This document shows positions 5,755 to 64,000 of a stretch of DNA of 64,000 nt, one piece after another. The notes below the pieces were generated by a model, which worked only from the letters and a program-made list of their open reading frames with translations, made no database searches and was not told where the DNA came from. The stretch is from Halorubrum salinarum (GTDB lineage: Archaea; Halobacteriota; Halobacteria; Halobacteriales; Haloferacaceae): assembly GCF_013267195.1 (NCBI RefSeq), contig NZ_CP053941.1, positions 744,001-808,000 on the forward strand, in the 5' to 3' direction. How positions within the stretch are numbered: the first letter of the stretch is position 1; each line of letters starts with the position of its first letter. Made by a program: the position numbers and the translations under genes.

Positions 5755-5795
5755 TTAACCAACAACGGGTGTCAGAGCCCACCAGTGTTGGTTAA
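5755..5795. repeat. Spaced palindrome TTAACCAACA/TGTTGGTTAA, copy 1
   Basis: Perfect 10-bp arms at 5755-5764 and 5786-5795 with a 21-bp spacer. The same arms with a 19-bp spacer occur at 60429-60467. The site lies 122 bp before the vapB start. It could be an operator, a replication or transfer site; see findings. Confidence 0.75.
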
Positions 5796-15109: not shown

Positions 15110-15287
15110 GATGATATTTAAATACAGGACGTGTATTAATGGTTGCTTTTTTGATGCTGTGGAAACGTCAGTAGTCGAGATCCTGAACGGTTAGACACAA
15201 TAAAAAGCAACGACAGCTGGTAAAAGGGCTACGACGGCCAGGCGATGGTGGTTTGTGGCCCCTAGGTGAACATCGCCCAAGCCGTCA

Positions 15288-18031: not shown

Positions 18032-18097
18032 TTTATTTACTACTATTGTTACACAGGTGTTATTTAATTTTTTCGAACTAAAATAGCATCGGTCTTA

Positions 18098-19120
18098 TTA
18101 ATCAGAATCTATATGCTTCGGTTTTAATATAGTATCTTGATTGATTGATGTTGTCACGCGTTGTCCTATAAATTCAAAGTACCGATCAGCAGAAAGTCCT
18201 GTACCAGGACGCTTCGTGGTGGTATTCTTTTTAGTCAATTCCTCACCTTTGTCAATAGTCTCAGTTGTAACGACGCTATGCTGAGCCCACTGTTTGATCT
18301 CAACTTCCTCGTCAGCTAATCCATCTTTTTTATTAGAAGTATCATTATAAAGTGTGGCAAATTCACAGATGTCCCTCAGTTCATCAGGCTCAATTGACAC
18401 TTCTTGATCAGGTCCCGGAAGCCGTCGGTCAATCGTAAAGTGCTTTTCAATGAGTGCTGCACCGTTCCCGATAGCTACTTTTGCTGCCTCAACCCCTGTT
18501 GAGTGATCCGAAAACCCAACAGGTGTATTCGCAATTTTTTCCAACACTTCGATAGTTTTGAAATCAAAGTCAGCAGCTGTGGTCGGGTACGCTGAAACAC
18601 AGTAGAAGAGCGCATATTCGATTGCTACATCGTCCAGAAACGCACAAGTGGCTTCAATCTCATCAATCGTATTCATTCCCGTTGAGACCAACAATGGCTT
18701 TCCCGTACTAGCAGCATATTCAAGCAAATGCCGGTTGTTCATCTCACCGGAGCCAACCTTAATCGCTGGAACATCTATCTCATCTAAAATGTCAATAGCA
18801 TCTGCCGAAAACGGCGTTGAGAGGAACGTTACGTCATGTCTATCTGCATGAGACTGGAGCTCTCGATGTTCTTGGATTGACCACTCACAGTCTGCTATTG
18901 TATCGTATACCTCGCCCGCTCCAATCGATCTCATTTCAGACTCAACCATCTCTGTATCCGCAATATGCGTCTGGAATTTAACCGCATCTGCTCCAGCATC
19001 CGCAGCCTCCTCAATAAACCGCTTAGCGAGTGTCAAATCATTCTGAGCATTAATTCCGACTTCTGCGATGATGTATGGCCGATGATCTGGACCGATCTGA
19101 GTGCTGTCAATCTCAATCAT
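18098..19120 (-). CDS. neuB: N-acetylneuraminate synthase family protein (nonulosonic acid synthase)
   Basis: 340 residues, the standard NeuB length. The TIM barrel shows IIAEVGINAQNDLTLAK, GADAVKFQTHIAD, LSTPFSADAIDILDE, AIKVGSGEMNNRHLLE, STGMNTIDEIE, LFYCVSAYPT, GFSDHSTG and IEKHFTIDRRLPGPD, all NeuB landmarks; the C-terminal ~60 residues form the SAF antifreeze-like lid (TKRPGTGLSADRY). It condenses PEP with ManNAc (giving Neu5Ac) or a related 2,4-diacetamido hexose (legionaminic acid). It overlaps neuA by 8 bp. The missing legionaminic dehydratase/aminotransferase genes nearby favour plain ManNAc, but they could lie elsewhere. Confidence 0.93.
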   Translation of the reverse strand: MIEIDSTQIGPDHRPYIIAEVGINAQNDLTLAKRFIEEAADAGADAVKFQTHIADTEMVESEMRSIGAGEVYDTIADCEWSIQEHRELQSHADRHDVTFLSTPFSADAIDILDEIDVPAIKVGSGEMNNRHLLEYAASTGKPLLVSTGMNTIDEIEATCAFLDDVAIEYALFYCVSAYPTTAADFDFKTIEVLEKIANTPVGFSDHSTGVEAAKVAIGNGAALIEKHFTIDRRLPGPDQEVSIEPDELRDICEFATLYNDTSNKKDGLADEEVEIKQWAQHSVVTTETIDKGEELTKKNTTTKRPGTGLSADRYFEFIGQRVTTSINQDTILKPKHIDSD

Positions 19121-19805
19121 CTGTCTCCCACTCTGTTAGGATTTGTTTCGCTAACCATAATTCAAAGGGTGTATCAATATCTATCGACTCCCGTTCAGTC
19201 ATCTCATATATTTCAGTCATGCCAGTAATCGTTTCTCCGGTCTGTAGGAACTGTTCAACGTCCACCACGTAAACTGCTCCATTCACCACATATTCCGGCT
19301 CACGATCTTGTCTGCGTTTGCTGGCGTCCGTATAATTTAATTTCTGAGCACCCTCAGGACTCGGTTTCCAGCGTGTCTCATACGTCGGATAGGCTGAGAC
19401 CACTGACTCTACTCCGGACCCCTTATAAATCGAATACGCCTCTTCAATGTGGGTGGATGTCCGAAGAGGCGATGTTGGCTGAAGCAAAACAAAGGTATCG
19501 TACTCCTCACCCTCGCTGTGTAGCGTTTCTAAAGCATGAGAGATTACTGGCGCTGTCGGGGCCTCATCTGTTGCCAATTCTGGCGGACGCATGAAAGGGA
19601 CTCGTCCCCCGTGGGTTTCCGCGACTTGAGCAATCTCATCATCATCAGTAGACACGACAACTGAATCAATTGCGGTGGCATCAAGCCCAGCTTGAATTGA
19701 GTGGGCAATGAGTGGGAGCCCATCTAATTCTCGGATATTCTTACGTGGAAGTCCTTTTGACCCACCGCGAGCAGGAATTAACCCAAGTACACCAGTGTCT
19801 GTCAT
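19113..19805 (-). CDS. neuA: CMP-nonulosonic acid synthetase (acylneuraminate cytidylyltransferase)
   Basis: 230 residues. The N-terminal LGLIPARGGSKGLPRKNIR is the diagnostic CTP-binding loop of CMP-sialate/CMP-legionaminate synthetases; VVVSTDDDEIA, LQPTSPLRTSTHIEEA and FVLLQ follow. It activates the nonulosonic acid made by NeuB with CTP. It overlaps neuC by 4 bp upstream and neuB by 8 bp downstream, so the three genes are one translationally coupled operon. Choice between sialic and legionaminic acid specificity cannot be made by eye. Confidence 0.93.
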   Translation of the reverse strand: MTDTGVLGLIPARGGSKGLPRKNIRELDGLPLIAHSIQAGLDATAIDSVVVSTDDDEIAQVAETHGGRVPFMRPPELATDEAPTAPVISHALETLHSEGEEYDTFVLLQPTSPLRTSTHIEEAYSIYKGSGVESVVSAYPTYETRWKPSPEGAQKLNYTDASKRRQDREPEYVVNGAVYVVDVEQFLQTGETITGMTEIYEMTERESIDIDTPFELWLAKQILTEWETDD

Positions 19806-43153: not shown

Positions 43154-44230
43154 ATGAAAGCCATCAGTCTCGCTGCCCGAAAAGGGCAGCGTCTCTGGCC
43201 CCCACGGAGAACCGCCCTAAGCCGATATCACCCATCGAGAACCGGACGGTTCTCGATTACTCGTCGACGCGGTTGAGGCGACGAACACGGAATCCACTCT
43301 TGTCGTCGGCTCGAACCGCCAACGCGTCCAGACCTACTTCGCGGACGGTTGCGACCGAAAACTCGACAGCACATACATCACCCACAAGCCGCAGCTCGGA
43401 ACCGGCCACACTCTCCGCCGAGCCGAATCGCACGTCGGGGACTCGTTTGTCGTCCGCAACGGCGACCACATTATCAACCGCGCCACGACTGACGCCGTTT
43501 GGGAGCGCCACCGCCAAACTGGTGATCCGACCGTCGCAATCACCTACGCCGACCACCCGGACAAGTCCCGCGTCATCAACTTCGCCGCCGACGACCTCGG
43601 GGGGTCAAAAAATCCACTTCAGCCCGAGTGGGTCGCTACCGAGTACATCGACGTGAGCGTCTGCGCGTTTCCACCCGAGGTCGTCGCCGCACTCCGCGGG
43701 GCCGACTCACCACGATGAGTACGCTCACCGCCACGCTCTCCGAGTTACTCGCGGCCCGCCCAGTCCGCGTCGTCCGGTATCGCGACCAGTGGTTCGATGT
43801 CGCAGAACTGTGGGCCCCCGTCGGGATTAACCGCATGATCCTCACGAATACTCGGACCGACTCCCGCGACACGAGCACGGTCGCGCCATCGATCAGAGTT
43901 GCCGATACCGCCCTGCTCACTGCGCCCACCATTCACCCGAACGCGCCGATCCGGAGCGGCGTCACGAGCAGCGAAAGCGCTCAGATCGGGTCGATCGTCG
44001 TTATAAACAACCCACTCATCCTCGTGGGTAGGACCCTCAACCTCGGTGCTGTCGGGCGTCGTCGCCAATACGATCGTTACTGGCGGCACGAACACCGGAA
44101 CGCTGGAAGACACAGTGATCACGATGTTCTCCTCGGTGGGCTCATCGGCGATAATGTGACGGTCAGGACTTACACTACGGTTCGACCTGGGCGATCATCG
44201 GCAACGAACCTATTAGTCGATCCCGTAGGT
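43154..44230 (+). pseudogene. Decayed GlmU-like sugar nucleotidyltransferase
   Basis: The start MKAISLAARKGQRLWP is the nucleotidyltransferase signature with substitutions (expected LAAGxGxRLxP). After a frameshift near 43205 the frame reads ENRTVLDY, VVGSNRQRVQTYFADGCDRK, RAESHVGDSFVVRNGDHIIN, DPTVAITYADHPDKSRVINF, then (another frame from about 43714) TLTATLSELLAARPVRVVRY, RDQWFDVAELW and IGDNVTV-type hexapeptides. It is a relative of the gene at 1-909. Several indels and codon losses; it ends where it meets the 3' end of the PAPS-reductase-like gene. Confidence 0.8.
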
Positions 44231-49923: not shown

Positions 49924-50760
49924 ATGCGCTCGTGGCTCCCGACGTCATCACCGAGCCCACCACACCTTGAGGTGGACGTACCACGGGCACATCTCCGGCA
50001 ATTGCTCGAACCAGTCGTCGCCGTTGACGGCCAAACAACACTCACCATCGGCGGTGATGCGCTTGTGGCGACCAGTGTGGACGACCCGCAAGTCACTGCT
50101 GTCGAGGCAACCCTCCACAAAAGCGACTGTCGGTACTTCGAAGCGACACCGGGGAGCATGACAGTTGATCCAAAGAAATTGTTGGATGTTCTTGCTGCCG
50201 AGCGTGACGGCGGCGAACTCGCACAGCTTCGTTACGATCCCGAAGCGTCAACGCTGCGACTCACCCTCTCTTCTTTTGTCCATAGGCAAACAGTTTCGAT
50301 CGACATCGCGGTAGAGAAACCAGACATCGATGGGACGCCGGACAGTGTGACAATGTACCATGTGCGTGACGACCTCGCACATGGGCTCCAATACTTCACA
50401 GAGCATGCGGCTGTCGTGGCATTCGGATACGATGCTACAGAAACAGAGTGTTACCTCGAGGAGATCACAACGGGAGAGGCTCCCTCAGAAGCGACGACCC
50501 GGTATCGCTGCCCGCGCGAACAGCAAGCGAGCTCAGTCCCATCTGAGTCAGTGCGCACGGCGGTTCCGACTGCCAACCTTCGCGCGCTCGTCGAGGCGGT
50601 CCCGGCAGAGACGCTCATCCGCGCTGATTACGCGGACACATTTCCCCTTCGACTCGCCTGGGATCTCACCGGTGGCGACGGAATTGCACAGGGAGCACTC
50701 ACCGAAGTCACAGCGCACCTCGCCCCCTACGAGGTTCCCGACACACCGACGACGGAGTGA
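49924..50760 (+). CDS. Divergent PCNA-like sliding clamp
   Basis: 278 residues. After a short basic/Pro-rich leader (about 15 residues) the order of elements follows archaeal PCNA: an N-terminal helix DVPRAHLRQLLEPVVAV, strands TTLTIGGDALVATSVDDPQV (compare the GLRIRAVDPANV region), SMTVDPKKLLDVLAAERDGG, YDPEASTLRLTLSSFVHRQT, the interdomain segment EKPDIDG, then in domain 2 DLAHGLQYFTEHAAVVAFGY and, at the end, VPAETLIRADYADTFPLRL and LTEVTAHLAPYEVP (compare the final strand and APRI tail). I infer a ring-forming replication clamp paralogue that may serve an element-encoded polymerase. Primary sequence is far from cellular PCNA, so structure prediction should decide. Confidence 0.65.
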   Translation: MRSWLPTSSPSPPHLEVDVPRAHLRQLLEPVVAVDGQTTLTIGGDALVATSVDDPQVTAVEATLHKSDCRYFEATPGSMTVDPKKLLDVLAAERDGGELAQLRYDPEASTLRLTLSSFVHRQTVSIDIAVEKPDIDGTPDSVTMYHVRDDLAHGLQYFTEHAAVVAFGYDATETECYLEEITTGEAPSEATTRYRCPREQQASSVPSESVRTAVPTANLRALVEAVPAETLIRADYADTFPLRLAWDLTGGDGIAQGALTEVTAHLAPYEVPDTPTTE

Positions 50761-50793: not shown

Positions 50794-51633
50794 TCAGTTC
50801 GATTCGTGAGAGGGGCGTCTCACAGTAGAGCCAGGCCGGACCGGCGCCCGCGGACTGAACGCACCACGCACAAGCGCGTAAACAGTTCCACAAACGACAC
50901 CGTAACCGGCCACCGCAGCCAGACTCCCGAAATGAAGGAGTGGGACATTTCTCCCGGTAATGACGGCAAGCGGCACGGGGACGGCGAGGAGCCAGACACC
51001 AACACCGAAGGCGAGCCCGACACCCGCAGTTGAGGCAGGGTTAATCCGTAGTGGTTCAGACAGGCTAAACTCGAGCAGTCCCGCACAGAGTACACCGAGC
51101 GTTCCCCCAGCAAGCAACGTCAACAGCCCACCCACGAGCACACTAGAGCTGCCGACAAGACTGGCTGCGAGAGGAAAGCCATCCTGGACACTGACACCGA
51201 TCCAGAGGGCGAGCGTTGCGAGGCCGCTGGCAAGCCCGGTTGCGAGCAAGATCGCGACGGCGTGTTCACGCGGGCGACGGGCAACAGGGCCGACACGCCG
51301 AATGCGACCCGCAGCCCAGAACCCAGCAATAGCAATCAAAAAGACGGTGATGGCGCCAAACACACTTGCCTCGTACTGCGCCCGCACAGCTGGTCGATCG
51401 AGCGTATAATGAAAGCCAAACAACTCGACCCAGAGAGAGCTGTGGAACGCGTACAACGGCTCAACGAAGACGGGCGCAATATGATGGGCGTCGGGGATGA
51501 GGCCCCAGACGCCACCAAGTGGGATTAACCACAGTGCGTGCTCACGGTCGAACTCGTATCGGAGGACAACTGGCACCGCTGCGGTGAGCACGCAGGCGGC
51601 GCCAAGCAAGAAGTGCGCGATTGCGGGGGCCAT
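50794..51633 (-). CDS. Polytopic membrane protein
   Basis: 279 residues with about seven hydrophobic helices. The N-terminus MAPAIAHFLLGAACVLTAAV and the WLIPLGGVWGLIPDAHHIAP stretch, with an Asp-His-His in the first loop, remotely resemble YdjM/DUF457-like membrane hydrolases, but the rest does not. It is on the strand opposite to the PCNA-like gene and tail-to-tail with it (33 bp apart). The GC is high and codon use is host-like. No function can be given. Confidence 0.72.
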   Translation of the reverse strand: MAPAIAHFLLGAACVLTAAVPVVLRYEFDREHALWLIPLGGVWGLIPDAHHIAPVFVEPLYAFHSSLWVELFGFHYTLDRPAVRAQYEASVFGAITVFLIAIAGFWAAGRIRRVGPVARRPREHAVAILLATGLASGLATLALWIGVSVQDGFPLAASLVGSSSVLVGGLLTLLAGGTLGVLCAGLLEFSLSEPLRINPASTAGVGLAFGVGVWLLAVPVPLAVITGRNVPLLHFGSLAAVAGYGVVCGTVYALVRGAFSPRAPVRPGSTVRRPSHESN

Positions 51634-53242: not shown

Positions 53243-55255
53243 CTACATGGTGTCGCCCTCAATGACCTGCCGTTCGGCATCCAGTGCGCGCACTTCGATG
53301 CCGCGCCACTCGCCATCGACACCCACCAGCGCCTCCGCGTATCCCAACGCTTCGTTGCCCGGCACCGCCTCTTGGACGAACCGCTTTTGAGCGTCGTTCA
53401 GCCCGAACTCTGCCGCCCAGTGGTCATCCATCCCATCAAGCCGGTGGAACTGCTTGATCGCACACTGATCGAGGATCATCTCCGCTTCCGCCCGCTCGAA
53501 GAACTCATCGACAGTCTGGGTGACCAGCTGAATCGAGAGATCGTGGTGCCGGTGGTGCCGAAAGATCGTCTCGAGAAAGGTCAGATTCGCGGCATCACGC
53601 AACACGTAGCGAGCCTCATCAATCACAAAGACCACCTCCTTGTCCGTCTGTTTGGCGCGTTCGTACACCAACGAGATGAGCAGCTGCATCACGAGTGTCG
53701 TCCGCCCGCCGACACGCCCCTCCTGTTGGGCTAAATCCAGATAGATGCGATCCGCAGCCGCGAAATCAACCTCGCTCTGTCGGCCGAGATGCGCGAACTG
53801 CCCATCCGGCCCGAATGGCCGCAACTGATCAATCAGCCACGTAGCGTCCGCCTGAAGCTTCTCGGCTTCTGCCGCCGTCCGCAGCGTGAACGCGTCCGGG
53901 TCGTCGACCACCGCCTCGAGGACATCGATCACGTCTCGCAGCGTAGGACTCTCACGGTCGTGGGTGGTCACGTCCTCGGTAATGCCGGCATTTCGGTAGG
54001 CCACCTCAATGGCCACCTCAAGCGTCGTCCGCCGGTCACCTAAGGAGATCCCGCGCTGCGCAAAGAAGTTCGCGAGGAAGCTGCTGACGCGCTCTTGTTT
54101 TTCGGTGAGTGGGCTGGCATCAGTACCCAACTGCTCGCGGGCCTGGTCGGTGGGCGGTGTGATCTCAAGCGGGTTAATGCCGAGCGTCCCACCCACCGTG
54201 ATCCGCTGGGCGTCCAACGCTTCAGCCACGCCGGCCCAATCGTTGAGCGGCTCGAGGATAACGCCGATCCGGTCCTCGTGGTGGGCCACCGACCGAATGA
54301 ACCGCTGTTTCGCGCTGAAACTCTTCCCGGAACCCGGATCCCCCACGGTAAACGTCGCATACCCGTTTTCGCGAGCAAACGGATCGACGACGACCGGTGT
54401 GTCCGTGTGGCGGTGAACTCCAAGTTCGACCCCGTCCGGCTCTAACAATGTCGGGCGATGTGGCGACGCCAACAGCGCGCCCACCGCGCCGCTCAACCCG
54501 ATCGTATCCCGATCAAGTGGCGCCCCGCCAAACGGCGCCGCACTCCGCAGGGCGCGCTGTTGGGCGCAGATCGCGGTCTTCGGTGCGAGCTGGGCCGGCT
54601 GTTCGCGCAACACGCGTTTCACCCGGCGGGTGGCCGTCCGGAGCTCCTCCCGGGTGTCCGCCCGCACGGTGACGTACACGCCCTGTGCGAACACCTGGGT
54701 GCCGGCCTCGACCGCGCGATACGTCGCGGCGGCCTCATCGGCCCGATCGTGGAGATACGTGCTCCGCACGCTCGACTCCAGATCAGCGTCCACCTTCAGG
54801 TCGTCCGCGGCGGTTTGGAGCTGATCGAGCGCCCGCTCGTAGTCACGCGGAGTGAGCCGGGCAGTGAGGTGAAACCGGACGTCAGTCAGCGTGAAGAGCT
54901 CGCTGAGATAGCCGTCGCTCGGGTGGTCCGGCCAGTCGGCGATGTACAACGTTCTGGTCCACTCGTTACCCACGCGCGCACACCGACTCTCCCACTCGAC
55001 GGCTGCTGGCGCGACGGCGTCTTGGTGGCGCTCCGGTGGGGTGGCTACCTCTGGATCCGGCGTTGGCGGGTCGTCTGGCGGCTTGATGAAGGCAGACAGA
55101 TCCACCTCGGGATCCCGCTGGGGTCGCCGCGCCTGAAGCCACACGCCAACAAGGAGCCCGACCACGAGTGTTCCGCCGCCGACGGCCAACCCAATCACGA
55201 GTGTCGACGGGGTCACCGACTCAACGCCAGCCAGCACGGCTACGAGGTTACCCAT
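53243..55255 (-). CDS. virB4: VirB4/TraC-like conjugation ATPase
   Basis: 670 residues. An N-terminal hydrophobic helix (about 20-42) is followed by a ~200-residue N-domain and a HerA/FtsK-type ATPase domain with Walker A GDPGSGKSF (about 304-312), TDASPLTEKQERVSSFL, and Walker B EVVFVIDEARYVL (about 535-547, catalytic Glu after Asp). LIQLVTQTVDEF is the Gln/sensor motif. It powers pilus assembly and substrate transfer at the membrane base of the conjugation machine. It is the last gene of the overlapping minus-strand operon (8-bp overlap with the upstream gene). The N-terminal helix is a common addition in archaeal VirB4. Confidence 0.92.
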   Translation of the reverse strand: MGNLVAVLAGVESVTPSTLVIGLAVGGGTLVVGLLVGVWLQARRPQRDPEVDLSAFIKPPDDPPTPDPEVATPPERHQDAVAPAAVEWESRCARVGNEWTRTLYIADWPDHPSDGYLSELFTLTDVRFHLTARLTPRDYERALDQLQTAADDLKVDADLESSVRSTYLHDRADEAAATYRAVEAGTQVFAQGVYVTVRADTREELRTATRRVKRVLREQPAQLAPKTAICAQQRALRSAAPFGGAPLDRDTIGLSGAVGALLASPHRPTLLEPDGVELGVHRHTDTPVVVDPFARENGYATFTVGDPGSGKSFSAKQRFIRSVAHHEDRIGVILEPLNDWAGVAEALDAQRITVGGTLGINPLEITPPTDQAREQLGTDASPLTEKQERVSSFLANFFAQRGISLGDRRTTLEVAIEVAYRNAGITEDVTTHDRESPTLRDVIDVLEAVVDDPDAFTLRTAAEAEKLQADATWLIDQLRPFGPDGQFAHLGRQSEVDFAAADRIYLDLAQQEGRVGGRTTLVMQLLISLVYERAKQTDKEVVFVIDEARYVLRDAANLTFLETIFRHHRHHDLSIQLVTQTVDEFFERAEAEMILDQCAIKQFHRLDGMDDHWAAEFGLNDAQKRFVQEAVPGNEALGYAEALVGVDGEWRGIEVRALDAERQVIEGDTM

Positions 55256-56327
55256 CCGCCTCCTCCCGGCGTTGGTGATTGACGCCGGCCTGTGTGGCGA
55301 CCGGTGGCGTCGCCGTGTCAGTGCCGTTCCAAAACTGGGTGGCCAGCCCCAGCAGCTCCGCCGTTGAGAGCCGCCGTGCCGTACAGTCGCTCAGCTTCCC
55401 CACGAACTCGGTTTCGACGGTTCGGACCCGCTCACGCAGCTTCTCGAGTTGAGCGCCGCGCAGCTCCGCGTCCGTGAGCCGATCGCGTCGCGTGACGAAC
55501 GGCGTCGCCAACACGCCGACCACGGGGAGCGTCGAGAGCCGCTCCGCGGGCGTCCGCTCGTCCGGGTGGCGTTCGTACACCTCGATCGGCGCCACCTCGA
55601 CGCCAAGGAAGTAGCGCACCCGGTGGGTGTCCGCCAGCTCCGCGGGTCGTTGGTCACGGTAGGCAGCGATGAGCGCGCGCAACGACTCGTGTGCGGTCAC
55701 GTCGGGATCCGCGAGCCGGGCGTCCAGCTGATCGACGAGCGTCGCAGCCGGGTACGGATCTGTTGTCGTGTACAGCGTGAGCCGGAAGGTGAGATCCTGG
55801 TCGGCGAACGCTTCCCCGACCGCTTGGCGGGCCGCCCAGTCGTCGGCCATCGCAAAATCCATGTTGCCAGGGGTGAGCTCGACGTACGCTTCCATTGTTC
55901 CGTCTGTGCGCTCGATCGCACCGTGGCGGGGCCACGCCCGTTTGAGCGCGGTCAGCTCCTGCGTTGTTTCATCGAGAACGAACGGCCGGGGAACGCCGTC
56001 CTCGTCGGCCCCGTCCGCTGTGACGGCCGCGTGGAGCGTCGTTTCGGGTCGGCGCAGATAGAAGTGGGCAACATCTACCAGCCACGTACTCGCGGGGAGC
56101 TGCTGGGGCGCGGCGTACACAATTGCCACCCCGACCGCGAGCCCGATACAGACGAGTGGGAGGACGAGCGCCTCCACGCCGAGCGCCGACCCACCAACGA
56201 GCCCGGCAATCGGAAAACTCACCACCACGTACAGATCGCGCTCGTCGATGCCGATGATCGGCAGCTGGCGGTCGGCGCCGAGGGTGTCCAACACCCGCCG
56301 GCTTGCTGGAGTGTCTCTGTCGCTCAT
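55248..56327 (-). CDS. T4SS membrane protein preceding VirB4 (PrgI/VirB3-like N-terminus)
   Basis: 359 residues. Two hydrophobic helices at about 32-75 (DLYVVVSFPIAGLVGGSALG, LVLPLVCIGLAVGVAIVYAA) are followed by FYLRRPET, the VirB3/PrgI layout, and then a soluble ~280-residue domain (TPGNMDFAMADDWAARQAVG, HESLRALIAAYRDQRPAELA) resembling the N-terminal domain of VirB4/TraC proteins. In some systems VirB3 and VirB4 are fused; here the split lies differently, with the extra domain on the VirB3 side. It overlaps the genes on both sides by 4 and 8 bp. It is probably an inner-membrane anchor for VirB4. Confidence 0.78.
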   Translation of the reverse strand: MSDRDTPASRRVLDTLGADRQLPIIGIDERDLYVVVSFPIAGLVGGSALGVEALVLPLVCIGLAVGVAIVYAAPQQLPASTWLVDVAHFYLRRPETTLHAAVTADGADEDGVPRPFVLDETTQELTALKRAWPRHGAIERTDGTMEAYVELTPGNMDFAMADDWAARQAVGEAFADQDLTFRLTLYTTTDPYPAATLVDQLDARLADPDVTAHESLRALIAAYRDQRPAELADTHRVRYFLGVEVAPIEVYERHPDERTPAERLSTLPVVGVLATPFVTRRDRLTDAELRGAQLEKLRERVRTVETEFVGKLSDCTARRLSTAELLGLATQFWNGTDTATPPVATQAGVNHQRREEADG

Positions 56328-57427
56328 GGGTTACGTTCGTTCCCGGTACGGCGGTACGACGGCATACCGTGCTTGCTGGTCGTGCCCGCTGTGCGTGAGG
56401 TCCACGAGCGGCCGTTCCCACCTTGCTTGCGCCCAAACCGCTGGGCTACCGTGTGGCCTACTGCGGCTTTCGGTCCCCACCGCGCAGCCGTCGCGCCGGC
56501 CCACGGCCCGGCCACCGCCGCAGCCCCGGCGACGGCGCCCGCTGTAACAGTGAGACCGGCCACCCGGCCGACCGTCCGCACCAGCCGAGGTGTCGTGTAC
56601 GCGAACAGCTTCCAGATGATCCACACGCTCACTACCGGCAGCGACACGGCGATAAGATAGCCGAAGAACGGATTTTCCGGAGCGATGGCTCCCGGCGCGC
56701 CCCCGACCAACAGCTCGTAGCCGCGGAAGATCAGCGCCACCGGTAGCGGCATCACTGCGAGCGGAATGAATTTGACAGCCACCCGGGTAGCGATCCCCGA
56801 GATAACGGGGAGGCCACCGTACGCGACCGCAATCACGATCGGCATCACGTAAATGAAGACATATAACAGCAGTTCACGCAGGAATAACAGCGCCTGAAGC
56901 GTCCACATTGCTATCCCTCCAATAAAAGCGAGAAGCATTCCCAAAGCAGGATTTGAGAGGGTGACATCGAGAAAATCCACTAATGGATCGACAATGGAAC
57001 CAACTGGCGGGACAAGTGCGATTGCGAACCCATCGACGAGGTATAGTGTTGCTACAGCGACCCAGTACCAAGTGGCGATCAGAATCCCTCCGGTCCATGC
57101 TGATCTCCGCACCCGCCGATCGCGAATGGGATCTGTGAAATTGAAAATTCGGAGAACATGTCGTCCTTGGACACACACGACGAGTATCAGGAACGCTATC
57201 AGTGTGATCTCGCCGGCAACAAGGGCATCATACAGCTGTATCCACGGCTCATTCTGTGGATCCCCAACTGGCAGACCATTGTTACTCTCGGGGAGTGGCG
57301 TCCCAAAAATAGCCTCTGTCAGCTCTCGGTATCCGTTTTTAATTCCGTCATCGAACCACTCAACAACCTGCTTAAAAGTGTCTAAGAACCACTGAATCCC
57401 CACATCTGTGAGTGAGACCCCACTCAT
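56324..57427 (-). CDS. VirB6/TrbL-like polytopic channel protein
   Basis: 367 residues. N-terminal amphipathic/soluble ~70 residues, then about six hydrophobic helices (LIAFLILVVCVQGRHVL, LFLRELLLYVFIYVMPIVIA and so on) and a basic, Gly/Arg-rich tail (RFGRKQGGNGRSW). The long central membrane part with a downstream Ala-rich segment (GAVAGAAAVAGPWAGATAAR) resembles VirB6/TrbL/TraL-type transfer-channel proteins. It overlaps the downstream PrgI-like gene and the upstream lipoprotein gene by 4 bp each. Placement in the operon supports the role; sequence families are too divergent for certainty. Confidence 0.78.
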   Translation of the reverse strand: MSGVSLTDVGIQWFLDTFKQVVEWFDDGIKNGYRELTEAIFGTPLPESNNGLPVGDPQNEPWIQLYDALVAGEITLIAFLILVVCVQGRHVLRIFNFTDPIRDRRVRRSAWTGGILIATWYWVAVATLYLVDGFAIALVPPVGSIVDPLVDFLDVTLSNPALGMLLAFIGGIAMWTLQALLFLRELLLYVFIYVMPIVIAVAYGGLPVISGIATRVAVKFIPLAVMPLPVALIFRGYELLVGGAPGAIAPENPFFGYLIAVSLPVVSVWIIWKLFAYTTPRLVRTVGRVAGLTVTAGAVAGAAAVAGPWAGATAARWGPKAAVGHTVAQRFGRKQGGNGRSWTSRTAGTTSKHGMPSYRRTGNERNP

Positions 57428-58239
57428 GCTTCGCCCTCTCCAATTGAGATGTCACATGTGAGTAGATCGTTCCCAGTGTAAGTGGCCCTATACGTACGTT
57501 GGACGTTTTCCTTACTGGCTGTTCCAACGATGGTAACTGTGAATTGTCCGCTATTACCATCTGGCTCACAACTTACTTCTTGACTACTGGATGAGAATGG
57601 GAAAACTCGTGAGTACAGCTTAAGCGTGGAACCAGGGTTAACAACTGGTTCGGCATGAAATTCCGGCTGTTCATCAACGACTACGATCCCACTATCATGT
57701 GACTGCTCCGGTGTAGTACGGGGCACGTATCCCTCAAAACGCAACTGGACAAGCTTCTCCGGACCACTTCCCCTGTTCTCAATGCGGAGTATCGTCTCTG
57801 TGCGAACGACTTGATCTGCTGCTCCCTCGTACATCTCTTCTGGATGATTCCGTCCGAGCTTCAACTCCCGAATAACCACATTCGGGCGCAACGACTGCTC
57901 AACAGCGGCCACAACACTCTGTCCATCGACAAGCTGGACGGTGTAGGTTCCTGGTGGGTACGCCGTCCCAATCGGGATCGTTTCACGACTGGCGCCCGGC
58001 GTGAGCTCGCGTTCGGCGAACGCCTCACCCGAGGGGGCGATCAGAGCCAGCCCGGTGGCGCTCGTTTCGGGATCGTACTCGACGACGAGGCTGGTACCAT
58101 CCACGGTGACGTTCGAGAGGGCTCCAGCATCGGGCGCTTCGGAGCCGGTGTCGGTACAGCCGGCGACCGTGCCGAGACCGCCGGCCGCGATGGTTGCGAG
58201 GACGGTGCGTCTCGTCGTGGCGGGTGTTTGGTGACTCAT
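57424..58239 (-). CDS. Tat-exported lipoprotein of the T4SS operon
   Basis: 271 residues. The N-terminus has twin Arg (TTRRTVLATIA) and a lipobox GTVAGC (Cys28), the usual haloarchaeal Tat-lipoprotein signal; acidic/Ser-rich linker DTGSEAPDAGAL follows and the rest is a beta-rich domain (LVVEYDPETSATGLALIAP, LKLYSRVFPFSSSSQEVSCE). It would be lipid-anchored outside the membrane. It overlaps both neighbours by 4 bp, so it is an integral part of the conjugation operon. VirB7-like stabiliser or adhesion function is possible. No named family seen. Confidence 0.82.
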   Translation of the reverse strand: MSHQTPATTRRTVLATIAAGGLGTVAGCTDTGSEAPDAGALSNVTVDGTSLVVEYDPETSATGLALIAPSGEAFAERELTPGASRETIPIGTAYPPGTYTVQLVDGQSVVAAVEQSLRPNVVIRELKLGRNHPEEMYEGAADQVVRTETILRIENRGSGPEKLVQLRFEGYVPRTTPEQSHDSGIVVVDEQPEFHAEPVVNPGSTLKLYSRVFPFSSSSQEVSCEPDGNSGQFTVTIVGTASKENVQRTYRATYTGNDLLTCDISIGEGEA

Positions 58240-59894
58240 TGGCGGGGTTCAGTGCGGAGGTACTGTCCAATGCGGCGGCCGGCAACCCACGCGACGACGA
58301 CCGGAATACTACCCCAGATCGCCGTCTCGAGCAGGTGGACCCAGCCGCCGACGGTGCCCAACGGATGCCAGCGCACGCTCTCGCTGGCGGCCACGTACGC
58401 GGGCGTGGTGGTGCGCCAGGACGCGGGCTCGAACGTGACCGTGTACAACCCCGGATCGCTGACGGTGACCGTGGTCACCCCGGAGTAGTTGAGCGCCACC
58501 GGCTCGTCGTTGAGCCGGAGCGTCCCGGCCGGGCCGTCGTCACCGACCGGCGACGGCGGCTGTGACCCAGTGAGATCGATCGGGTCGCCCGTCTGGGGGT
58601 CGTGTAGCGCGATCCGGATCGTGGCTGTCGACGGCGACGTCGCGACCACCTGTACCGAGAGGTTTGGCCGCCGAATCGCGCGCTCGCTCCGGGGTGCCGC
58701 CGACAGCGGTGCCGACACGCCACGCACAATCCCGTGAACACGAGCGGTTTCCGGCGTGACCGTTTCGTTCCGAAGCGCCAACCCATACGTGCGGGTGTAC
58801 GCCTCCCTGACAAGCCCGACGGAGACGTTGGAGCCGAGCCGGGATGCGGGTGGCGACCGTGAGACGCCCCACACGGCCGTCAGCTGCGGCCCTTCACGAA
58901 CCGGGTCCGCCCGAGGGCCGATCCGCGCCGGAAACGCCACGACACCTATCGGCTGGCCGGCCGGAGCGCGTTGGGTCGTCCCTGACGCCCGGCGCACCTC
59001 CACGCGATCCCACCGTGGCGCCCGTGTCGTGTAGTAGCGCCACACGCCACGAACCCGCTGGCTCCCGTTACGCGTCAGCGTCACGCCGTGCCACGGGGTC
59101 CCCTGATACACCGCCAGCCCCGTGTCGCCGTCGGGATACGTCGCGGTGTAGGCGGTCGGCCGCAGCCGGTAGATCCACACCGAGTGCGTGTCGCTGACGG
59201 CAACCGTCTGGGTCGTCACGTTCCCAGCCGTCCCGTTCGGCGCGACCGTCACCGTGATCTCAGCCGTGACCGTCAGCGGCTGGTGTCGCGCTTGCGTCGT
59301 CGAGTACCTGATGGTCGGCGTCTGTGAGCCGGATGCCGAGCCAACCTGCTCGTCGCCGATCGACACGCGAACCTCGCGGACCCGATAACGGATCACCGAG
59401 CGGTTGCCGGTCGGCGCCCGCACCCGATAATCGATCAACGCCCGTACCGTGCCGTTCGGCGCGATGTACTGCCGGCTCTCGGTGGGTGACAGGTGAATCT
59501 GCGTGGCCGGGTGGACTGCGAACAGCGTGGCGTGTGCGTCGGCAATCAGGCCGCGCGTCGTGCGGGTCGCCCCCGGCGGCGCCACGGCCGTCGTGGCGTT
59601 GCCCGGCGTCAGCGCCGCAAACGCGTCGGCCGTCAGCGCCGCCGCATGGGCGGGCGGCGCCGCATACGTGAGATCCGTACACGTTGCGAGCTGCTGGGTG
59701 GGGGTCGGTGGGGCGCCATATGTGGCGTTGTACGCGGCCGGCGTGAGACACGGGTCCGGGTCACGGGCATCGACGGTTCGCGTCTCGTTTGCGGGCGGTG
59801 GTGTCGGCTGGGCGGCGGTCTGGCCGACCGCGACCAGCGTCACCCCAACGAGCAGGCTCACAAAGAGGCGCCGCGTGTGACGAGGCCAGCGCAT
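58236..59894 (-). CDS. Large secreted, Asn-glycosylation-rich surface protein of the T4SS operon
   Basis: 552 residues. A Sec-type signal (RLFVSLLVGVTLVAVGQTAA, cleavage after about residue 27-28) and a C-terminal membrane helix (WGSIPVVVAWVAGRRIG) with short basic tail make it a type I surface protein. The ectodomain is beta-rich, low in Lys, and has about a dozen NxS/T sequons (NET, NAT, NGT, NRS, NVT, NGS, NVS, NLS, NYS). The four-base overlap with the lipoprotein gene ties it to the conjugation machine. It could be the outer adhesin or the channel piece passing the S-layer. No homologous family is recognised. Confidence 0.8.
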   Translation of the reverse strand: MRWPRHTRRLFVSLLVGVTLVAVGQTAAQPTPPPANETRTVDARDPDPCLTPAAYNATYGAPPTPTQQLATCTDLTYAAPPAHAAALTADAFAALTPGNATTAVAPPGATRTTRGLIADAHATLFAVHPATQIHLSPTESRQYIAPNGTVRALIDYRVRAPTGNRSVIRYRVREVRVSIGDEQVGSASGSQTPTIRYSTTQARHQPLTVTAEITVTVAPNGTAGNVTTQTVAVSDTHSVWIYRLRPTAYTATYPDGDTGLAVYQGTPWHGVTLTRNGSQRVRGVWRYYTTRAPRWDRVEVRRASGTTQRAPAGQPIGVVAFPARIGPRADPVREGPQLTAVWGVSRSPPASRLGSNVSVGLVREAYTRTYGLALRNETVTPETARVHGIVRGVSAPLSAAPRSERAIRRPNLSVQVVATSPSTATIRIALHDPQTGDPIDLTGSQPPSPVGDDGPAGTLRLNDEPVALNYSGVTTVTVSDPGLYTVTFEPASWRTTTPAYVAASESVRWHPLGTVGGWVHLLETAIWGSIPVVVAWVAGRRIGQYLRTEPRQ

Positions 59895-59900
59895 TGCGGG

Positions 59901-60302
59901 TCACCACGGCGTAAGATCGACACACTCAGCTAGCGGGAGGTTCATGACGCTGCCCGCGACGGTGTACAGTGGTCCGAGGACGACCAGGATGACCGTCGAC
60001 CGCAGCGCCGTCCGCTTGTGGCGCTTCAACCCTTCTCGCTGCTCCGGCCGGAGCGTAAACAGTTCGATCAGCGAGTCGGCCTGCCAGACGACGACCAGCC
60101 CCATCAGCCCGATAGCGGTGGTGAACTGGAAAAACCCGGAGATCATCTCCGGGAGCCGCTCGGCCTCACACACGGCGCTCTCTTGAGCCGCAACTGGCTC
60201 GACAGCCAGCACGCTGAGGACGAGACAGGGCAGGACAACGCGGCGCCACGCCGCGCGAGTTGGCACACGGTCCGCCAGGGGTGGAGGGCTTGGCGTTCGC
60301 AT
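59901..60302 (-). CDS. VirB2/TrbC-like pilin candidate
   Basis: About 133 residues from the ATG at 60302; a GTG at 60350 would add 16 residues. Signal-peptide-like segment VVLPCLVLSVLAVEPVAAQE, then FFQFTTAIGLMGLVVVWQAD and STVILVVLGPLYTVAGSVMN, two membrane helices separated by a short basic loop (RPEQREGLKRHKR), ending with a Cys-containing tail. Signal plus two helices is the standard form of conjugative pilins (VirB2, TrbC). It is first in the operon, with 6 bp to the next gene. Two extra Cys (before the first helix and near the end) could form a disulfide. Confidence 0.78.
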   Translation of the reverse strand: MRTPSPPPLADRVPTRAAWRRVVLPCLVLSVLAVEPVAAQESAVCEAERLPEMISGFFQFTTAIGLMGLVVVWQADSLIELFTLRPEQREGLKRHKRTALRSTVILVVLGPLYTVAGSVMNLPLAECVDLTPW

Positions 60303-60365
60303 TGCTGGGTGGAGTGATGTGTGTATTGGTATCTCGTAGCACACAAACAATCCACAGGATGCGAC

Positions 60366-60376
60366 ATAAATTTTGG
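60366..60376 (-). promoter_or_regulatory. Candidate TATA box of the T4SS operon
   Basis: On the minus strand AAATTTATGTC precedes the pilin gene by about 65-75 bp. It lies between the gene and the spaced palindrome at 60429-60467, so the palindrome would stand just upstream of the core promoter. Confidence 0.35.
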
Positions 60377-60428
60377 GCTTAGGCTGGCGAGTGAATCCGG
60401 TGTGTGAGAGTGTGTTTCGCCCGGGAAC

Positions 60429-60467
60429 TTAACCAACACTGGCAAAATCGCCGTAAATGTTGGTTAA
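60429..60467. repeat. Spaced palindrome TTAACCAACA/TGTTGGTTAA, copy 2
   Basis: Arms at 60429-60438 and 60458-60467 are identical to those at 5755-5795; spacer 19 bp. The inner flank CTGG after the left arm also matches the complement of the right flank of copy 1. It stands 126 bp before the pilin-like start. Candidate operator or transfer-origin repeat. Confidence 0.75.
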
Positions 60468-61272
60468 TCAGTTCCTGCCTCGGTGGGCGATCGTTGACGT
60501 TGCTGGTGTGGGGTCTCCCGTGGCGGTCGGCGGCGATGATGGAGGGCTATTCTCGCGACGATCTGGGGTGGTGCGGAGTGTCCGTGTGTCAGTGGTTGCT
60601 CCGGCCGCAGTACACCCGTGATTGGCTGGGTGACACACCACCGTTTCACCTCGACTGCCCAAGAGTTGCTGATGGGTGGCTACCCGCTCTGGGAACTGAT
60701 CTGGACGCGTCAGCCACCTACTGCCGGAGTGTGGCGTGACTCCGGTGTCGCCGCCGCACGCGGCTGGCGCGCATCAATATCTTCGCACGCCGAGGTGTTC
60801 TATCCGTACTCCGGAATCACCCCGGAACTACCGGGGGTGGTACGGCCGATCTCGGATTTCGACGTCGTGAAAAGTTGGTGGCTACTGCCGCTCGCATGCC
60901 GGCGCACCGTCTGTGACGGGGGCGCCGCCCCCTCGCTGCGGGCTGGCGATTCTGGTCGCGCCGATGGGTGCCGCCAGCAGCGGCGTCCTGTAGACGATCG
61001 ATCGGCGGCTGCTGGTGACACGACGGCCGCGCGTTTCACCCATTGTTTCGGGGTGTTGTTGCGGCCGGCGAAGGGGGTGGTATTCGCCGAAATCTGCCGG
61101 TGAAAGCCAATCTCACGGGATAACTCGCTGCTCTCCCTGTGACACGCACGGTGTGGACGGCGCGCTGGTTGCGTCCGGACTCGACCTCTAGAGTGGCGTC
61201 TGGAGGACCAGTCGGCAAGCTACTGGCGCGTTTCACTCATTATCACCCTGACCCAGCCACCCCCTGGCGACA
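60468..61272. other. Long non-coding region between the T4SS operon and the primase
   Basis: About 800 bp without a credible gene: the few long frames have no domain and poor codon use. A 16-bp unit GCGCGTTTCAC(C/T)CATT recurs at 61029-61044 and 61226-61241. CCGTTTCACCTC at 60642-60653 shares its core. Regions of this kind between mpf and replication genes often contain oriT or a replication start. Confidence 0.5.
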
Positions 61273-61281
61273 GCTATATTT
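61273..61281 (+). promoter_or_regulatory. TATA-like element ahead of the primase gene
   Basis: CTATATTTT lies 32-40 bp before the ATG at 61313 and 11-19 bp before the GTG at 61292. It supports a start in this area and not the far upstream one at 61139. Confidence 0.45.
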
Positions 61282-61312
61282 TGTGGACTGTGTGATCACT
61301 ACGCACGAACCG

Positions 61313-62605
61313 ATGGTCACCCCGCCGACGGCCGACGCCCTCCCGGCGGCGATCGTCGACCACGAGCAGTGGGTCTGCTGGCGAACCCAGGAGCGCGACG
61401 GCAAGCCAACGAAGGTGCCGATCATCCCCGGAACGACCCAGTTTGCGTCGACCACGGATCCGGACACGTGGACCGACTTCGCGACGGCCCGCGAGGGGGT
61501 GCTTGCGACGCCGGTTGACGGGCTCGGCTTCGTGTTTACGGCCGACGATCCGTTCGTCGGGATCGACTTAGACGACTGCCGAGACCCGGACGCGGCAGCG
61601 CCGACTGCCTGGGCTGCCGACCTCATCGACACGCTCGACTCGTACACCGAAGTGAGCCCCTCGGGAACTGGGTTTCACGTGTTGGTGACCGGCTCCCTGC
61701 CGGCGGGTCGGAACCGCGCCGGCGACCTCGAGCTGTACGACCGTGCCCGCTTTTTCACCGTGACCGGCGACCACGTCGCAGCGACCCCGGCCACGATCGA
61801 ATCCCGTACTGAGGCAGTCGCGACGGTCGTCGAGCAGGAACTCGCCGCCGACGCGGACGAGCCAGCAACGACCGAGGCAGACGACATGTGGGGGACGTCA
61901 GAGCCCACGACGCGCACCGAGTCGGCTACTACTGACGCCGGGACCGCCGCCGTGCCCCTCTCGGATACGGAACTGCTCGACCGGGCGAAACACGCCGCCA
62001 ACGGCGAGAAGTTCACCCGCCTGTGGAACGGCACCACGAGCGGCTACGAGAGTCACTCGGAGGCCGACATGGCGCTGTGCCGGCAGCTCGCGTTCTGGAC
62101 CGGCGGTGACTCAGCGCGGGTCGACCGGCTGTTTCGTCGGTCAGGGTTGTACCGCGAGAAGTGGGACACCGTCCACTACGCTGACGGCAGCACCTACGGC
62201 GAGAAGACAGTCGAGCGCGCCGTCGCGGCCACCGATGACGCGTACACGCCGCCCGAGGCGACCGATTCGGCCGCGGCCGATGCGACCCAGGCGACGGCCG
62301 GCCCAGCCGGCAGGTCCGCACCCGAGCAGCCGGCTTCCAGCAACGGCAGCGACGATCCGTCGCCACCGCCCGCGACCGATGAGACACTGCCACCGGACGA
62401 GCGTGCTGCCGAGCACACCCCTTACTCACAGCGGGCGGCGGAACGCCGCAAACGAATCGCGGAGCTCACCGACCGCATCGAAGCCCTGATCGAGGAAAAC
62501 GACCGCCTGCGGACAGAGTTGGAGGCGGAACGACAGCGCCGACACGAGCTTGAGGCCGCACGCGAGGAATCGTCGGGCGGCTGGTGGCCATTCGCGAGCG
62601 AGTAG
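61313..62605 (+). CDS. NrS-1-like primase-polymerase (AEP PrimPol) with C-terminal coiled coil
   Basis: 430 residues from the ATG at 61313 (61292 GTG possible). The N-terminal domain shows VDHEQWVCWRTQERDGKPTK, VPIIPGTTQFASTTDPDTW, GLGFVFTADDPFVGIDLDDC with the Asp85/Asp87 metal site, and YTEVSPSGTGFHVLVTG with the SGTGxH motif (about residues 117-122), and LYDRARFFTVTGDHV, the archaeo-eukaryotic primase pattern of phage NrS-1 and plasmid PrimPols. A second domain (LDRAKHAANGEKFTRLWNGT, HSEADMALCRQLAFWTGGD) is the NrS-1-type helix bundle. A Pro/Ala-rich linker and coiled coil (IAELTDRIEALIEENDRLRT) end it. No SF3 helicase is fused. It may prime transferred single-stranded DNA. Confidence 0.85.
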   Translation: MVTPPTADALPAAIVDHEQWVCWRTQERDGKPTKVPIIPGTTQFASTTDPDTWTDFATAREGVLATPVDGLGFVFTADDPFVGIDLDDCRDPDAAAPTAWAADLIDTLDSYTEVSPSGTGFHVLVTGSLPAGRNRAGDLELYDRARFFTVTGDHVAATPATIESRTEAVATVVEQELAADADEPATTEADDMWGTSEPTTRTESATTDAGTAAVPLSDTELLDRAKHAANGEKFTRLWNGTTSGYESHSEADMALCRQLAFWTGGDSARVDRLFRRSGLYREKWDTVHYADGSTYGEKTVERAVAATDDAYTPPEATDSAAADATQATAGPAGRSAPEQPASSNGSDDPSPPPATDETLPPDERAAEHTPYSQRAAERRKRIAELTDRIEALIEENDRLRTELEAERQRRHELEAAREESSGGWWPFASE

Positions 62606-62628
62606 CATGATCCGGGTGGTTTGTGAGC

Positions 62629-63999
62629 TTAGCCGTCCTCAGACGGGGTAACGTAGCGGTCCCGCACCGACTGAAACGTGTGGACATCGGTGAGCCCGGG
62701 CTGGTCGATTGTAAACAGCGCCGGCCGGGTCTGCTCGCCGTACGTTTTCTCGACCCGGGACTGGCCGTCTGGCGGCGTGTTCAGTGCCGTGAGCACTTCG
62801 TGGGCAGCCTCGCGGTTTTTGACGATCCAGATCGCCGCGGCCGGATCTTGGGCCGCCAGCTTGTCGTAATCCTCAGGCACCGCCTGTGCGAGGTCGTTGT
62901 TCATCCGCTCGGCCTCGAGGCCGGCCACGACTCCACCCGTCTCGTCAACGGCGGCCGCGTCGAGTCGCCCCTCGGGCACCTCGTAGTACTGCTCGACGGT
63001 GACGGCCGGCGAGTCGGGGTCGGCGACATACTCGGCCGCAAGCAGCGCACAGCCGGCCTCGACCATCGCCACGTGAAGACTCGACTCCCCGAGGTCGCCG
63101 GCGCCGGCGCCGTGGGCGACGCCCTCGCGGTGGCGGACGCCGATCGCGTCACGCCCCTCCGCAGTCACCGTGTACAGGATGTGTGGGTACCGACAGTCCC
63201 TGCCGATGAGCCCGGCCTCACGGAGCTCATCGAGCTCCGCGTCGCCGATGCCGACGTACTCCTGGAGCCGGCGCATGCTGTCGCGGGTGATGTCGTACTC
63301 CAACTCAGGGTCGTACTGGCCTTGGTGGGCGGAGTACACCGCCTGAAGAAAGCGCAGGCCGGCGTCGCTGATCGGACTCTCTTGGCGCTCCGTATAGGTG
63401 AGCTTCAACGGCAGCTCACAGATGGGACAGTCGTCGCGGTCGACGTCGGCAGGGTCGTGACAGCAGCTGATCGCCGCCCGCAGCCCGTCCGGCGAGGGGT
63501 CGTAGGGACTCTCACACTCCACACAGACGAGTGCGTGCCGCTCGTCGTCGTACACGACTGGGTCGGGCAGCCGCTCGGTGTACGGCAGCGCCGAGTCGAC
63601 GCGTGCGGCCGCCGCCTCCGCGGGGGGTGTGGCCTCATCAGCGCCCGTGTCGTCGCCGGTGGTCGGCTGCGTGGCCCGGACATCCAACCCGGCGGTGAGC
63701 CGCGTCCGGTCGCGACACGTGTCGATACGGGCGGTGACCGCCGTTTCTCTGGCCGGGCGGAATCCCTCGCTGTCTGGATGCCCCGGTGGGAGCGGCGCGC
63801 TTTCGACCAGAAACGGCGGTGGGGCGGCGGCCTTGAACGGGGCGGGCAGCCGCACCAGCCACTCGCCGCGGCTCAGTGCTCGCAGGCGATTCGCGACGGC
63901 CGCCGGCTCTTGGTCGGCTGTGGCGAGCCGCTTGGTGAGCGCGTCGTCGACCGGGACACTGCCCGTGACAATCGTGGAGACGTTGTTGAGCAACTCCAC
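62629..63999 (-). CDS. HerA/VirD4-like conjugation ATPase, C-terminal part (N-terminus outside window)
   Basis: The frame runs to the window edge, so at least 456 residues and the Walker region lie partly outside. The first visible residues (LLNNVSTIVTGSVPVDDALT, NRLRALSRGEWLVRLPAPF) match the post-Walker-B region of HerA/TraG-type DNA pumps, and LPPGHPDSEGF is their usual exit. A ~330-residue tail follows with zinc-finger-like Cys pairs (VCVECESP, CCHDPADVDRDDCPIC), an HTH-like stretch (LQEYVGIGDAELDELREAGL) and an acidic nuclease-like region (TVEQYYEVPEGRLDAAAVDE, GVVAGLEAE). This would be the coupling protein that docks the transferred DNA. The tail looks like an added DNA-binding or nuclease module. 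Confidence 0.75.
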   Translation of the reverse strand: MELLNNVSTIVTGSVPVDDALTKRLATADQEPAAVANRLRALSRGEWLVRLPAPFKAAAPPPFLVESAPLPPGHPDSEGFRPARETAVTARIDTCRDRTRLTAGLDVRATQPTTGDDTGADEATPPAEAAAARVDSALPYTERLPDPVVYDDERHALVCVECESPYDPSPDGLRAAISCCHDPADVDRDDCPICELPLKLTYTERQESPISDAGLRFLQAVYSAHQGQYDPELEYDITRDSMRRLQEYVGIGDAELDELREAGLIGRDCRYPHILYTVTAEGRDAIGVRHREGVAHGAGAGDLGESSLHVAMVEAGCALLAAEYVADPDSPAVTVEQYYEVPEGRLDAAAVDETGGVVAGLEAERMNNDLAQAVPEDYDKLAAQDPAAAIWIVKNREAAHEVLTALNTPPDGQSRVEKTYGEQTRPALFTIDQPGLTDVHTFQSVRDRYVTPSEDG

Positions 64000-64000
64000 G

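Follow-up and report, generated by a model that had tools for sequence, protein, structure and literature searches.

A 64,000-nucleotide stretch of Halorubrum salinarum DNA (RefSeq assembly GCF_013267195.1, contig NZ_CP053941.1, positions 744,001 to 808,000; hereafter the window) carries near its right end a compact operon that, in our judgment, quite probably encodes a conjugation-type type IV secretion system (T4SS) of the widespread haloarchaeal TrbL_3 class, located on a plasmid-like element that now lies within a 118-kb variable island of the chromosome. Homology identifies in this system a VirB4 motor, a VirB6 channel, a protein combining a PrgI/VirB3 segment with the VirB4 N-terminal domain (PrgI/VirB4-N), and a VirD4-type coupling ATPase. 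All six genes of the operon are open, in support of this interpretation. The coordinates of the features discussed are collected in Table 1.

The block from VirB4 to the pilin consists of six minus-strand open reading frames (ORFs) at window positions 53243-60302, where the original prediction, made from the sequence alone, had placed them. Our recomputation also reproduced the predicted overlaps of 4-8 bp among the last five genes, namely 8 bp for VirB4/PrgI and 4 bp each for PrgI/VirB6, VirB6/lipoprotein and lipoprotein/glycoprotein, with a 6-bp gap between glycoprotein and pilin. The VirB6 protein matches PF19590 TrbL_3 with E 3e-138 (461 bits vs. a cut-off of 23), and VirB4 matches NF045971 with E 6.4e-39 over residues 75-646, below the cut-off of the CD1110 equivalog. 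VirB4 also matches the VirB4 structure PDB 4ag5 (E 4.6e-7) and contains Walker A (GDPGSGKS at residue 305) and Walker B (VVFVIDEARY) motifs, and the CedB profile reaches only E 0.0097 on this protein. With protein identities of 34-92%, other loci keep the same gene order, which is shared by Halorubrum, Haloparvum, Halobacterium and Halolamina. Because the VirB6 and VirB4 matches (3e-138 and 6e-39) coincide with an order preserved elsewhere, the operon is not a chance arrangement, and its assignment as a conjugation-type T4SS operon with VirB4, VirB6, PrgI/VirB3-like, pilin and VirD4-type components is upheld; the profile test that could have overturned it succeeded for VirB4 and VirB6 and gave a weak result for the pilin.

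Table 1. Features of the T4SS operon and its surroundings (window positions)
Feature	Position	Strand	Evidence or remark
VirB4 ATPase	53243..55255	-	670 aa; NF045971, PDB 4ag5, motifs
PrgI/VirB3-like segment with two transmembrane (TM) helices + VirB4 N-terminal domain	55248..56327	-	359 aa; hhalign, fused homologs
VirB6-like polytopic channel	56324..57427	-	367 aa; PF19590 TrbL_3
Tat-type lipoprotein	57424..58239	-	271 aa; RR signal, lipobox VAGC
Surface glycoprotein	58236..59894	-	552 aa; signal peptide, beta-sandwich domains, C-terminal TM helix, sequons
VirB2-like pilin	59901..60302	-	133 aa; signal peptide, two TM helices
TATA-like box CCCAAAATTTATG of operon	60365..60377	-	similar boxes upstream in L040, L041, L042
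Spaced palindrome TTAACCAAC-N21-GTTGGTTAA	60429..60467	.	upstream of operon; chance expectation 0
GC-rich inverted repeat CCGTACCACCCCCGG...CCGGGGTGATTCCGGAGTACGG	60804..60845	.	PrimPol/pilin gap
PrimPol, NrS-1 type	61139..62605	+	probable start 61313; PF22763, AEP-like motifs
VirD4/TraD-type coupling ATPase, C-terminal part	62629..64000	-	extends to 66189; 1186 aa in full
Membrane protein, downstream of virB4	50794..51633	-	adjoins virB4 in locus L039 too; 86% identity, same order
Extra PCNA-like sliding clamp	49924..50760	+	NF002222 E 1.2e-9; partly present at equivalent place in L039

The motor is divided between two genes. The PrgI/VirB4-N protein gave no direct profile match of its own, a PDB sequence search with its profile returned nothing useful, and its structure model is poor (predicted local distance difference test, pLDDT, of 44.6). 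Distant haloarchaeal homologs are more informative: in these, its counterpart makes up the first third of one continuous ORF of ~1030-1220 aa that ends in VirB4 (seven of the sampled loci have such a fusion), and by hhalign 326 of its 359 residues align to residues 10-344 of the fused 1028-aa VirB4 proteins (probability 99.9%, E 2.6e-37). The fused relatives show that the two VirB4 halves belong together. In two fused proteins (L110 and L112) the match to NF045975, a mycoplasma-ICE VirB4 model, begins close to the start of the model, so that the N-terminal part is, by homology, a genuine VirB4 N-domain with a two-TM PrgI/VirB3-like segment in front of it; PF12666 PrgI matches one fused relative weakly (E 0.077). 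The original prediction called this split unusual, a view that the comparison reverses, with the two parts encoded separately in 24 of 31 sampled rows, so that the split is the rule among haloarchaeal members. On a long-branched, unrooted tree of the 31 VirB4 domains, three changes are required to explain the split/fused character. Split forms near the window sequence have an extra N-terminal hydrophobic segment on VirB4 that is absent from the fused forms, except in L108. This last locus, nested in a clade of split forms, encodes a VirB4 fused in frame to the PrgI part (13170-16379) and then a second, separate virB4 (17513-19561), an apparent recent fusion or duplication. Five distant loci (L111, L112, L119, L120 and L122) have close to virB4 a family of ~400-520 aa without a Pfam match, which was not seen in the element of the window.

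The remaining operon products are surface and envelope proteins. The predicted pilin has a signal peptide ending in AQ, two TM helices flanking a K/R-rich loop and a conserved Cys pair (alignment of 13 homologs); judged by these homologs, its most likely start is the ATG at 60302 and not the TTG at 60350. The lipobox of the lipoprotein is kept in its relatives. The glycoprotein carries 12 N-glycosylation sequons, and its AlphaFold2 model (pLDDT 52) places Ig-like domains at residues ~117-241 and 410-510 and a helix at 515-546, thus supporting no more than Ig-like beta-sandwiches plus a TM helix at the C-terminus; a PDB sequence search with its profile returned nothing useful. Among 30 loci across the order, VirB4/PrgI is present in 30, VirB6 in 29, the glycoprotein in 27, the lipoprotein in 23 and the pilin in at least 15, with VirD4 in 12 as counted within the sequenced flanks examined. 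The glycoprotein, also presented as unusual in the original prediction, is therefore a regular constituent, and its frequency together with that of the lipoprotein argues that both are core parts of the machine, not cargo. The glycoprotein may act as an adhesin or in mating pairs.

This same protein is the basis of a reading to which we assign the slightest probability of all those considered, in which cells exchange DNA by membrane fusion and the glycoprotein is a distant Fsx1-like fusexin. Its best PDB match in Foldseek is indeed Fsx1 (7P4L, E 1.8e-3, probability 0.72), class II viral fusogens are also among the top rows, and Fsx1 genes occur in haloarchaeal elements with VirB4/VirD4 (PMC9259645). 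We nevertheless set fusexin identity aside as very improbable: the TM-score is 0.10 on a low-confidence model, structural re-alignment led to generic Ig/macroglobulin domains with none above Z 7.4, and sequence support is lacking, with 0-3 cysteines not conserved throughout. The Fsx1 profile PF10699, which may miss Fsx1, had no match in the genome. The glycoprotein of L039, whose reference contains a stop, did not enter the structure comparison.

Surface proteins in the core, along with a relaxase not having been found, as in protein-exporting bacterial T4SSs (PMC3158045), would also suit a T4SS that secretes proteins or effectors for contact-dependent cell-cell interaction. We hold this to be highly unlikely given the DNA-replication partners of the system (PrimPol, PCNA, an OB-fold protein), its plasmid location, and the lack of any effector candidate beside the operon, since among the 30 loci no further family occurs in a third or more of them, nor is any of these relaxase-like. 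A still less probable reading, to which we give very little weight, invokes plasmid vesicles of the pR1SE type (apHPV) that the ATPase would fill with plasmid DNA: pR1SE-like elements, which integrate into chromosomes, encode S-layer-like proteins and a VirB4/HerA-like ORF25 (PMC10818511). However, the apHPV vesicle proteins are reported to be unlike conjugation proteins, the cassette described here includes VirB6, PrgI/VirB3-like and full VirB4 homologs, and its surroundings showed no S8 protease.

Beyond the non-coding gap upstream of the pilin, both the PrimPol and the HerA/VirD4-type ATPase of the original prediction are present, with two corrections. The PrimPol matches the NrS-1 HBD domain PF22763 (E 2.2e-29), and we read AEP-like motifs in GIDLDD, SPSGTGFH and RFFTVTGDH; its homologs begin to align only at residue 24-49, so that the start probably lies beyond 61139, e.g., at ATG 61313, and the gap is therefore ~1 kb. 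The window edge truncates the ATPase ORF, leaving only the C-terminal 456 aa inside; a Walker B motif is present, and both Walker A (GKTGSGKST, 64903-64929) and the match to TIGR03743 TraD (E 2.1e-8) lie beyond the window. Directly upstream of the VirD4 gene lies a PIN/MazE-type toxin-antitoxin pair (L006:15292-16017, i.e., 66291-67016 in extended window coordinates), followed by an ArdC-like protein (L006:16151-17092, or 67150-68091) with ArdC-N and IrrE-type peptidase matches, both just under cut-off. The latter, a possible anti-restriction gene, is also found in six other T4SS loci.

In four congeners, collinearity with the chromosome breaks off at ~704.6 kb and resumes at ~822.9 kb (at 824.9 kb in one of them), with ~10 kb in between vs. 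118 kb here, and the whole window falls inside the island; the PCNA gene and membrane protein kept downstream of virB4 in L039 suggest a left limit of the transfer element near 49.9 kb of the window. Members of the VirB6 family (PF19590) were identified in 141 of the 293 genomes representing the order, in 9 of the 19 sampled within the genus and on 85 PLSDB plasmids, which marks the TrbL_3-class T4SS, as judged by profile matches, as a common haloarchaeal machine, and a second complete operon is found in the same genome on the 155-kb contig C3 (L125). Thus the locus is not a fixed core locus, as the original prediction required, nor does it resemble a fixed domesticated locus without mobile context of the Ced/Ted type. 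As to the rest of the island, its left part (window 1-47500) has a lower GC content (~51%), and at 35-47.5 kb we noted by eye glycosyltransferase-, phosphodiesterase/sulfatase- and PAPS-reductase-like ORFs that probably form a surface-glycan region.

Several observations weigh against the proposed system. The pilin matches PF04956 TrbC only weakly (E 0.13), and the VirD4-type ATPase stays below curated cut-offs, including those of PF01935 and PF10412. All 85 plasmids with this VirB6 are called non-mobilizable. The predicted lack of a MOB relaxase in the window was borne out, and among the ORFs that were searched with Pfam from 48.6 to 77.8 kb, i.e., past the window edge, none encoded one. The proposed search of the neighborhood for a relaxase, integrase and att site was thus carried through, for integrases of the tyrosine type only, without a find: PF00589 has no match from C1 377.8 kb to 2.26 Mb (the nearest is at C1:377 kb; serine recombinases were not searched), and in the right flank there is no tRNA, nor was an att site found. 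Two candidates were examined and rejected. The tRNA-Arg at 43413-43492 does not qualify as an att site, as the right flank lacks a second tRNA and the collinear left flank is far to its left, and the Rep-Arvir nickase (PF25227), a member of a recently described group of archaeal endonucleases (PMC13107129), is encoded by a single gene at C1:393.6 kb, 0.4 Mb from the operon, too distant to be the relaxase of the element. Some distant relatives (G027, G087 and G169) have a Rep-Arvir gene closer to the T4SS, at ~14-40 kb, and it may serve other T4SS branches. Because relaxase and integrase were both tested for and not found, we describe the system, on sequence grounds, as a conjugation-type T4SS of unproven transmissibility and not as an integrative and conjugative element (ICE).

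The same negative results favor a reading in which the machine is real and its chromosomal copy immobile: a plasmid fragment, stranded or domesticated, that would act in trans for other elements, for chromosome transfer or for DNA import of the Ced/Ted kind. The mosaic nature of the island, with its surface-glycan-type genes, and the precedent of Ced and Ted as domesticated T4SS derivatives (PMC9905601) are compatible with it. We consider it unlikely, given that the six genes and VirD4 are intact, that a VirD4-type coupling protein has been kept at all, and that close relatives are on plasmids with a patchy distribution.

The gap upstream of the operon contributes a further link to plasmids. 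The palindrome stands 52-90 bp upstream of the TATA-like box and recurs before the pilin gene in three of four aligned Halorubrum relatives and also in L043. The genome holds 20 copies, nine each on contigs C2 and C3 and two on the 2.94-Mb chromosome, an enrichment on the small contigs with binomial p 4e-15; both chromosomal copies (window 5755-5795 and 60429-60467) are inside the island, which in this respect shares a sequence signature with plasmids. The general form, TTAACCAAC-N19-25-GTTGGTTAA (mostly 41-42 bp), was matched in 176 of the 286 genomes searched across the order, a single haloarchaeal genome having as many as 33 copies, and viral contigs contained it in 60 stretches; a reversed control pattern had no match, and we found no published description. 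The sites are mostly intergenic in all orientations, and a function as a pure promoter operator was rejected on account of those between convergent genes (15 of 95) and within called ORFs (12). The GC-rich inverted repeat is present in all five aligned Halorubrum-type gaps, though the gap is only ~53% identical, and is a candidate origin of transfer (oriT), replication origin or operator. It could even allow a relaxase-free version of transfer, which we regard as distinctly unlikely, in which the divergent PrimPol and this repeat initiate, a primed strand and not a nicked-and-tethered one is fed to VirD4/VirB4, and the glycoprotein is the mating adhesin.

In the conjugation-type T4SS that we favor, the PrgI/VirB4-N protein, by homology, supplies the N-terminal part missing from VirB4, and the signal-peptide pilin would assemble into a VirB2-like pilus. 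The missing VirB5 and VirB7-10 parts may be replaced by the glycoprotein with its Ig domains and by the Tat lipoprotein, which would contact the mating partner through the S-layer. A nicking enzyme from another locus or of a family not yet recognised would start transfer, VirD4 would pass single-stranded DNA to VirB4/VirB6, and PrimPol, with the PCNA and OB-fold protein of the element, would make the second strand.

The statement that haloarchaeal transfer systems are poorly described is fair, with the qualification that archaeal VirB4/VirD4 pairs without a relaxase have been known since 2010-2011 (PMC2841640, PMC3158045). Guglielmini et al. reported in 2011 archaeal loci on chromosomes and plasmids with VirB4 and a coupling protein and no recognised relaxase, placing archaeal VirB4 in MPF_FATA (PMC3158045). 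The present system is alike in its VirB4 and coupling protein, its occurrence on chromosomes and plasmids and the lack of a recognised relaxase, and differs in that the full cassette (VirB6, PrgI/VirB4-N, pilin, glycoprotein, lipoprotein) is resolved. Similarly, a 53-kb VirB4/VirD4 region of the Haloferax volcanii chromosome was described in 2010 as a 'possible DNA secretion system' (PMC2841640), and fsx1-bearing large integrated haloarchaeal elements with VirB4 and VirD4/HerA-type ATPases followed in 2022 (PMC9259645). The former has XerC/D, and Hfx. volcanii gave no PF19590 match in a control search; the latter carry XerC/D recombinases and Fsx1, neither of which was found here. The Ced and Ted systems of Thermoproteota share a VirB2-like pilin, a VirB6-like channel and a VirB4-like ATPase, but are described as domesticated, with no glycoprotein/lipoprotein cassette seen in the available text (PMC9905601). 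From the accessible part of a 2025 review (PMC12857230), which names no haloarchaeal system there, two further comparisons can be drawn. The euryarchaeal Thermococcus plasmid pT33-3, for which conjugation was shown in 2023, likewise has VirB4- and VirD4-like proteins and no recognised relaxase, but is reported with these homologs only, the likeness being one of published description. The PrgI-PrgJ (VirB3-VirB4) pair of pCF10 similarly has a two-TM VirB3-like protein adjoining and overlapping VirB4, whereas here the N-domain of VirB4 is carried by the VirB3-like protein and VirB4 itself has a further hydrophobic segment at its N-terminus. Within our search, which left out subscription papers and preprints, no paper assigned haloarchaeal gene exchange to a defined T4SS; the new part is thus the resolved cassette of a conjugation-type T4SS.

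Overall, gene exchange among haloarchaea is rampant, and this analysis defines a compact and widespread cassette, whose VirB6 is encoded by roughly half of the genomes sampled, that may contribute to it. With the core surface proteins identified, the remaining question is narrowed to the nicking step, and the presence of two complete copies in one genome, on the chromosome and on the 155-kb contig, makes a direct knock-out test possible.

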